Assembly (NCBI GenBank): GCA_027365225.1
Contig: DAHXNV010000001.1
Location: 58,004-122,003, forward strand
Origin: Gammaproteobacteria bacterium
Lineage (GTDB): Bacteria > Pseudomonadota > Gammaproteobacteria > Steroidobacterales > Steroidobacteraceae
Length of the DNA: 64,000 bases
Direction: 5' to 3'
The notes under the pieces were generated by a model. It had not been told where the DNA came from. It did no database searches and worked only from the letters and a program-made list of their open reading frames with translations. Positions 16,264 through 18,149 of the stretch are shown piece after piece; within the stretch, counting starts at the first letter, position 1, and every line of letters starts with the position of its first letter. The position numbers and the translations under genes are program-made.

Positions 16264-16376
16264 GCGCGGCTCGGTGTGTGGGCACGGGGACGGGCCGCAT
16301 CGCGATCGAGCGGGCCAATTCCCGCGCCCTCACTCGCGGCAACTATTTGCCGGGTAGTGGGTCAGTTTGGAAATTT

Positions 16377-17003
16377 CTAGAACGGATACCGCTCGATAAC
16401 CAAGTCCGCGTGTTCTCGCATCCCTTCCTTGATCCCGTGTGCCAGAGTTATCAGGAACAGCTGGGCCCCTTCTCGCCTAGCGAATTTCATGGCCGGGATA
16501 AAGTCACTATCTGCGGTAACCAGGACGATGACCTGCGCCTGACGCTTGAGCGTTAAGCTAGCGATGTCGAGTCCGATCCTCATATCGACACCCTTCTGTC
16601 GAATGCTTGGCATCACATCAGAGGATTCGATTTCTACGGTGGGACCCGCCCGGCTTGCTCAGGATTTTTGGCTTGAGATGCCACCCTTCGTGAAATAGCT
16701 CGCCGAAGCGTAGTGCGAAGAACGGCTCTTTCAAAAGAGCCGCTTGGGCGCTCTTGTTTCTCGCAGCAATTTCCGTTGCGCCAAAGTCCATAGCACCGCC
16801 CCGAGTGGTCTGGTGGCGATACCTTCCAGGGGCCTAGCGTCGTAATAGTAGATGCGATGAAGCCGCATCTGACCGAGACATGGAAGCTTCTGAATGCTGC
16901 TGGCAAAGGCGGAAATAGCGGCAGCGTTAGCGGGCGTCTTCTTCGTGCCAAGCTTGCGACGGATGAACCCGCCATCAAGCAGCATTGCGTACGATACGGC
17001 CAT
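16377..17003 (-). pseudogene. NYN domain (LabA/DUF88-like) gene with two compensating frame disruptions
   Basis: MAVSYAMLLDGGFIRRKLG...IYYYDARPLEG (frame 0) / GGAMDFGATEIAARNKSAQAALLKEPFFALRFGELFHEGWHLKPKILSK (other frame) / VEIESSDVMPSIRQKGVDMRIGLDIASLTLKRQAQVIVLVTADSDFIPAMKFARREGAQ (frame 0). SD GGGAGG precedes the ATG. Confidence 0.82.
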
Positions 17004-17248
17004 TTGGCCTCCCAAATAAAAAGGCCGCAAAGCGGGTGGGGGACGTGCCCCTCTTATATGACACCCACTAAGCAGCCGTTTCTTATCGGCGGTAATTCTA
17101 CGCCTGCCCTGCCGGATATGCGAGCGACGGAGTTCACTTTTCTAAGTATCTAACAACGCTGCAATTTCTTCTAGAGTCCAAAGCTTATCCGAGACCCCAG
17201 CCGCCATCGCTGGGGTGATCCGTAGCGTCTGATGGGTATTGGAATTCC

Positions 17249-17518
17249 CTATCTTCCCCAGCGCTTTTGGGCAGCCTTCTTCGCTATATCGGACCGCTGC
17301 TTTTTTGTCAGAGCCTCAGCCCTGGCTTTGCCGCCCTTCAGGCCACCCCGTCGGCCGAGCGACACGGCTGCTGCGTCCTTGCCCTCGTCCGTCTTGGGCA
17401 TCTCTGCCTGTCCCGTGGCGATGTCGGTGAGAAACTTGGCGAGCTGATTTACGTCACGAAGACGCTTGCTTGAGCGGTCTGGCATGCTCACACTATGGCC
17501 CTTGGAGCACCGCATCAC
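17249..17518 (-). CDS. Small basic conserved protein with KGGKARAEALTKKQRSDIAKKAAQKRW motif
   Basis: MPDRSSKRLRDVNQLAKFLTDIATG...AAAVSLGRRGGLKGGKARAEALTKKQRSDIAKKAAQKRWGR; widespread hypothetical family. Start probably an internal ATG. Confidence 0.7.
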   Translation of the reverse strand: MMRCSKGHSVSMPDRSSKRLRDVNQLAKFLTDIATGQAEMPKTDEGKDAAAVSLGRRGGLKGGKARAEALTKKQRSDIAKKAAQKRWGR

Positions 17519-17529
17519 AACGGGGCGTC

Positions 17530-17688
17530 ATGAAAAATGGGAAGCGGATGACTGGCGGGGCCGGCTGGGTCCTCCAAACCACAAAGGGCAGAGAGCGCGC
17601 ATTCAGGGCAACGCTCCTCAAGACGTTCAACCTTGGCCATCGGCGCATCGCTATCTTCAGCGTCCCAAAGCGCTTCGGCTCAAACTGA
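17530..17688 (+). CDS. Possible small ORF ending inside the right TIR
   Basis: MKNGKRMTGGAGWVLQTTKGRERAFRATLLKTFNLGHRRIAIFSVPKRFGSN; stop TGA comes from the TIR. No family recognised. Confidence 0.3.
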   Translation: MKNGKRMTGGAGWVLQTTKGRERAFRATLLKTFNLGHRRIAIFSVPKRFGSN

Positions 17689-18149
17689 CCCACTACCATT
17701 TGCCGGTATCGCTTTACGATCCTGTGTTCACGCCGCCCGACCGCAGACCTCTCGGCACCTGAGTTCTCCAGGGGCTGACGTTCGAAAATGTCCCAAACGC
17801 GCCAGCGCCTCGCTCGAGCGCGTATTGGCCACCTGCCCGGTACCGCTCACCGGAGAGCTGGCCGGACGATGCGTCGATGTCTAGCGGGGCGGGATGGACA
17901 AATGCCGCCATTGCGGCACTCTCACCCGACCGCAGAAGGCAAGGCGGAAATCAAGTGCTGCACGACGACAGGCGCCGAGGTTTTCCGCGAGCACCGGCTG
18001 CGAAACACCAAGCCAAGCAACGCCAAGTCCTCGGGCTACTCCTCGCGTTGCCTCAACGCCGACAATTTAACCCGTCCATGCTGCGAACGAACCGTCGTTT
18101 AAGACCCTAAGCGACCGCAAAGCTACGCCGTGGCTTATCCGAGTACTCG

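Follow-up and report, generated by a model that had tools for sequence, protein, structure and literature searches.

A 1,345-bp unit in a Steroidobacteraceae genome as a very probable deletion derivative of IS1-like transposons with passenger genes

The window, i.e., the whole 64,000-bp stretch of DNA that was analysed, contains a 1,345-bp unit that very probably belongs, as a non-autonomous copy with an internal deletion, to a widespread group of IS1-like transposons that carry passenger genes. Given a transposase remnant lies between its two genes, one for a KGGKARA-type small basic protein (KGG) and one for an NYN (LabA-like) protein, the unit would be an internal-deletion derivative.

Ends, insertion site and genes of the window unit

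The order read in the window is ATTTGCCG (left 8-bp target-site duplication, TSD; 16345-16352), GGTAGTGGGTCAGTTTG (left 17-bp terminal inverted repeat, TIR; 16353-16369, plus strand), the interior, CAAACTGACCCACTACC (right 17-bp TIR; 17681-17697, minus strand) and again ATTTGCCG (right TSD; 17698-17705), and the length of 1,345 bp is measured between the outer TIR ends. Both TIRs are identical, as are both direct repeats. When the 17-mer was searched for across the window with at most three mismatches, only these two matches were found, against 0.03 expected from shuffles, and no shuffled window reached two. This bears out the sequence-only reading of the same DNA, which had described perfect 17-bp TIRs, an 8-bp duplication and a unit of this length. 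The unit is a single copy in its own genome (a 1.96 Mb assembly, 65.6% complete), and no close DNA relative of it was found on plasmids.

Comparison of the flanking sequences indicates that the unit is a real insertion, located inside a decayed transposase gene that is IS4-like (family named by eye). The flanks were joined with one copy of ATTTGCCG removed (window 16297-16352 plus 17706-17739), and this query aligned without gaps across the junction to two sequences of the same genus, at 78% over 90 bp (L358) and 78% over 80 bp (L359), each with a single diverged target copy and without the insert; these are homologous transposase genes, and orthology of the loci is not proven. Given the matched stretch of L358 lies inside an intact transposase-like ORF, the target of the unit was a decayed gene of this kind, to which the left flank with its target copy belongs (16297-16352, minus strand). 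The comparison with an empty site that had been proposed earlier is hence favourable to an insertion at the level of homologous sites. An orthologous empty locus was sought and rejected: same-genus genomes retain the upstream patatin gene without the intergenic stretch, and the junction is covered only by the homologous transposase genes. In the right flank, a decayed copy of a CxxC-rich ORF is seen at 17788-17995 (83% identical over 209 bp); this ORF is present in two same-genus genomes (L365 and L366), and is 110 aa long in L366.

The KGG gene is an intact ORF (17249-17485/17518, minus strand; 78 aa if translation starts at the ATG at 17485). Between it and the NYN gene, at about 17142-17237 on the minus strand, lie the last ~30 codons and the stop of a transposase gene (HQTLRITPAMAAGVSDKLWTLEEIAALLDT), whose 5' part is deleted. 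This remnant matches an HMM of related transposases at model positions 247-276 (E 2.6e-10), its DNA is 72-83% identical to the 3' ends of other family transposases, and the deletion junction is ~20 bp past the KGG stop codon. As a complete transposase gene is absent and only model positions 247-276 are left, the unit is not an autonomous IS. The claim that no transposase-like ORF is present must be corrected, as it misses this C-terminal remnant of an IS1-like transposase, while that of a TIR-bounded unit without a functional transposase stands, on the evidence of the TIRs, the TSD and the joined flanks.

The NYN ribonuclease-type gene (16377-17012, minus strand) is broken into three stretches in two frames: an N-terminal piece (16734-17012), a middle piece in the other frame (16621-16793), and a C-terminal piece in the first frame again (16380-16658). 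These pieces match, in order, different parts of intact homologues of 221-251 aa (L337, L338 and L335), and together span most of the homologue length. Pfam NYN is matched by the C-terminal piece (E 9.7e-8), and the gene has a weak match to the PADLOC LabA-like NYN nuclease. Both frameshifts are, by eye, near G-rich runs. The gene is thus either a pseudogene or carries assembly errors, and its two frameshifts make it probably inactive here, unless they are such errors. The content of two genes reported from the letters alone is accurate for KGG, intact and on the minus strand, but NYN does not form a single ORF.

Elements sharing the ends and their transposase

The exact 17-mer TIR is present in many Pseudomonadota genomes; its matches amount to at least 118 genome-contig stretches, including Acidobacteriota, Planctomycetota, Nitrospirota, Chloroflexota and others, and at least 120 viral-contig stretches. 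Some single 17-mer matches in the collection scans are expected by chance, and one-mismatch matches were about as many as those of a control pattern, so the evidence is limited to exact matches or TSD-bearing pairs. Pairs were accepted with at most three mismatches per TIR and 140-9000 bp apart, and their flanks were compared for exact 8-mers. Identical flanking 8-mers were obtained for 52 of 99 distinct pairs, i.e., the window unit and 51 others, against none of the 99 in each of four shifted-flank controls, which answers the earlier suggestion to search for other TIR pairs. The 52 elements range from 152 to 4,362 bp, come from many phyla, and have the end consensus GGTAGTGGGTCAGTTTGAAAT, which is biased by the search pattern. 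Among the 45 elements of at least 300 bp, the 8-bp TSDs present a mild symmetric preference, starting with C/G then A/G and ending with C/T then G/C.

In terms of genes, a near-full transposase is combined with a complete KGG in 21 of the 52 elements and with no or partial KGG in two; six elements contain KGG without transposase, in six KGG is accompanied by a transposase fragment (the window unit, L386, L043, L036, L226 and L241), and three contain a transposase fragment without KGG, while 14 have neither in full and are mostly MITE-like units of less than 620 bp. Full-length relatives (e.g., L077, L078, L143 and L343) contain one transposase and passenger genes between IS ends, and L042 (1,365 bp) is a near-minimal element of KGG and transposase alone. 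A near-full family transposase is present in three of 31 other same-genus genomes, and one of these three, L404, is a complete element with its own TSD. Of the proposed spread through a helper IS with the same TIR, the existence of full transposons with the same ends elsewhere is supported, L404 included, but neither a helper transposase nor a second copy turned up in the genome that the window comes from, which is 65.6% complete.

In L386:3118-4459 (G071), a 1,342-bp element has KGG immediately next to a transposase fragment (model positions 163-293), which parallels the window unit. MITE-like units of ~150-520 bp with the same TIRs and perfect 8-bp duplications are found in several phyla (L081, L084, L086, L142, L159 and L164, and further L180, L215, L232, L247, L275 and L328).

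All 22 aligned family transposases match both Pfam IS1 (PF03400) and the NCBIfam IS1 model (best score 8e-21), with D67, D139 and E204 invariant among them. Their predicted fold is DDE/RNase H-like and resembles DDE transposases/integrases such as ISCth4. IS1 family elements have TIRs starting GGT..TG and target duplications of 8-9 bp; the family ends begin GGT..TG and the 52 elements have an exact 8-bp TSD, which fits. Plasmid copies are annotated by NCBI as 'IS1 family transposase', and the 15 transposase copies recovered by scanning genomes represent at least eight phyla. Judged by these matches, the transposase group is IS1-like, and it is placed as a distant branch because the NF033558 (IS1) scores of two members listed singly, 60.5 and 61 bits, are below the NCBI cut-off of 100. 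The IS1595 family, where passenger genes and 8-bp TSDs are reportedly known, is a very improbable home for the element: its NCBIfam model is matched weakly by eight of the 22 transposases (best 3.6e-8, and below cut-off in one member listed singly), whereas all 22 match the two IS1 models, with a better best score (8e-21 vs 3.6e-8), none has an IS1595 Pfam match, and the label of the plasmid copies is that of IS1.

The KGG protein and the cargo of the family

Of the 23 elements that hold a near-full transposase, 21 also have a complete KGG. Both genes lie on one strand in all 21, and the reading direction of KGG is inward from whichever TIR is nearer, with a start usually 60-330 bp inside the TIR. 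The window protein was aligned with 29 element-borne homologues, at 36-62% identity. When 299 genomes were searched with the KGG protein only, i.e., with no TIR information, nine genomes matched; the family TIR is adjacent in nine of nine, and seven have a complete TIR pair with a perfect 8-bp TSD. As the adjacent TIR is recovered in every case, the link between KGG and the TIR does not result from having searched by TIR. Most of the full-length KGG homologues encoded on viral contigs also have the TIR just upstream. Given full elements in many phyla encode both transposase and KGG, this protein is to be seen as the hallmark of the whole element family rather than as a partner of NYN.

No Pfam family matches KGG; its structure is predicted, with moderate confidence, to be helical, and no PDB match was found for the predicted fold. 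This small basic protein is most likely a DNA-binding transposition accessory or regulator, encoded next to one end of the element. A tblastn search of plasmids with the KGG protein of the window unit returned no match, and the plasmid elements were found later via the transposase. In the annotated plasmid records examined, KGG goes under the name 'histone H1' or 'hypothetical protein', which suggests the element group has probably been overlooked by annotation.

Several elements also contain a small coiled-coil and winged-helix-like protein, recognized by eye and through weak pairwise matches (L041:3198-3725, L404:3657-4133, L178:5847-6275, L040:5317-5784, L152:4514-5014, L225:6604-7005, L079:2842-3333 and L139:4864-5205). 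The KGG protein of L041 carries a similar-looking C-terminal domain as a fusion, a hint that both proteins work together. Many proviral contigs (L054-L067) carry a short protein that shares only the C-terminal KGGKARA...AIAKKAA motif, without the family TIRs; this is probably a different family.

With KGG and the transposase left out, Pfam and PADLOC matches point to defence- or toxin-antitoxin-type cargo in at least 14 elements, besides the window unit, whose TSD is confirmed. It comprises HTH-ImmA/IrrE proteins matching RmrA or PD-Lambda-2_B (L143, L241, L332, L343, L277, L211 and L345), Fic (L076 and L100), a HipA-like kinase with DUF3037 (L078 and L044, the latter by eye from the pooled count), an AAA ATPase (L132), SocA-like (L041) and PDC-M63B (L036). 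The family cargo further includes one PemK-like protein. RES/MbcA genes (Acidiphilium, L346) and Shedu (Methylocapsa, L344) were considered as cargo and left out of the count, as they are outside the TIRs. From this count we infer that the cargo may be enriched in defence genes. The NYN gene of the window would likewise be passenger cargo, of a putative RNase, toxin or defence type.

Origin of the window unit and relation to known systems

DDE transposases act on TIRs, and fill-in yields target duplications. The architecture of autonomous members is TIR, KGG gene, cargo, transposase, in some cases further cargo, and TIR, with an 8-bp target duplication produced on insertion. In the simplest history, an internal deletion would have removed the transposase gene from an ancestor with the order TIR-KGG-transposase-NYN-TIR, sparing only its last ~30 codons and leaving a junction ~20 bp downstream of the KGG stop codon. 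The unit now sits inside the decayed IS4-like transposase gene. Because the ends and the duplication are intact, the unit could still move in trans, through a related transposase acting on its TIRs; defective copies such as mobile insertion cassettes (MICs) and MITEs can be moved in this manner (PMC3129680). Counted against this very probable reading are the lack of a helper or second copy in the incomplete own genome, that an intact KGG-transposase-NYN element was looked for and not found, and that the uninterrupted sites are not proven orthologous.

A sub-case of this same explanation, whose probability overlaps with it, is that the unit is only a fossil: the deletion happened in place after an autonomous insertion, and the unit never moved as it is. 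This is possible, if somewhat doubtful. It agrees with the single copy in the 65.6% complete genome, the broken NYN gene and the truncated transposases in other family copies, yet the TIRs and TSD have remained perfect, as if the ends had decayed little, and the family abounds in MITE-like or transposase-less elements that have perfect TSDs, so that defective forms probably do move. The sequence-only reading had instead favoured a dedicated mobile insertion cassette, in which NYN and KGG form one module of an RNase and a basic partner, spread as cargo by a helper. The two genes do fill the unit on one strand, and transposase-less TIR elements with KGG and different cargo exist (L211, L041 and L225). 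However, KGG occurs with many unrelated cargoes or with the transposase alone (L042), whereas NYN was found in no other TIR element, its nearest homologues (L334, L335, L337-L339 and L373) having no TIR pair; moreover, the transposase remnant separates the two genes and the NYN frame is broken. The proposed pair is not sustained by these results, and a dedicated cassette is highly improbable.

Passenger-bearing ISs and transposase-less cassettes are already named kinds: the former are known as transporter insertion sequences (tIS; PMC3129680, PMC7986276, PMC9330008), and the latter as MICs, e.g., MIC231 (PMC3129680). Like tIS, the full-length relatives have a single transposase between short TIRs, are flanked by an 8-bp TSD, and carry genes that have nothing to do with transposition; unlike them, the group has an IS1-like transposase, a near-constant KGG and repeated toxin-antitoxin or defence-type cargo. 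The window unit shares with MICs its IS-type ends, passenger genes and absence of a functional transposase, but it retains a transposase remnant as a deletion derivative of its own family, and its movement in trans is only inferred. The group agrees with the IS1 family in a DDE transposase matching PF03400 and NF033558, GGT..TG ends and 8-bp duplications, and differs in a single-ORF transposase (~290 aa) below the NCBI IS1 cut-off (in the two members listed singly) and in the size and content of its elements, most of which measure 2-4.4 kb and include KGG as well as cargo. Finally, family units of ~150-620 bp share ends and perfect 8-bp TSDs as MITEs do, although the window unit, unlike MITEs, carries genes. 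In the open literature that was searched, we found general definitions and no description of an IS1-like group with the KGG hallmark and defence-type cargo, and this KGG-marked group is apparently undescribed.

A broader proposal, offered tentatively and falling just short of probable, is that these elements form an unnamed transposon superfamily spanning at least eight phyla, with an IS1-like transposase and a dedicated KGG-family DNA-binding accessory, whose main role would be to carry toxin-antitoxin and anti-phage modules, and which would include abundant transposase-less cassettes and MITEs on the same ends, the window copy being one relic. That toxin-antitoxin and defence genes pass from one genome to another is known, but the vehicle of many small modules is not. 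Given the group combines short exact ends and exact 8-bp duplications with an uncharacterised hallmark protein and interchangeable cargo, it provides both a simple sequence rule (TIR plus KGG) by which new candidates for defence cargo can be found and a transposition system of two proteins that lends itself to testing.
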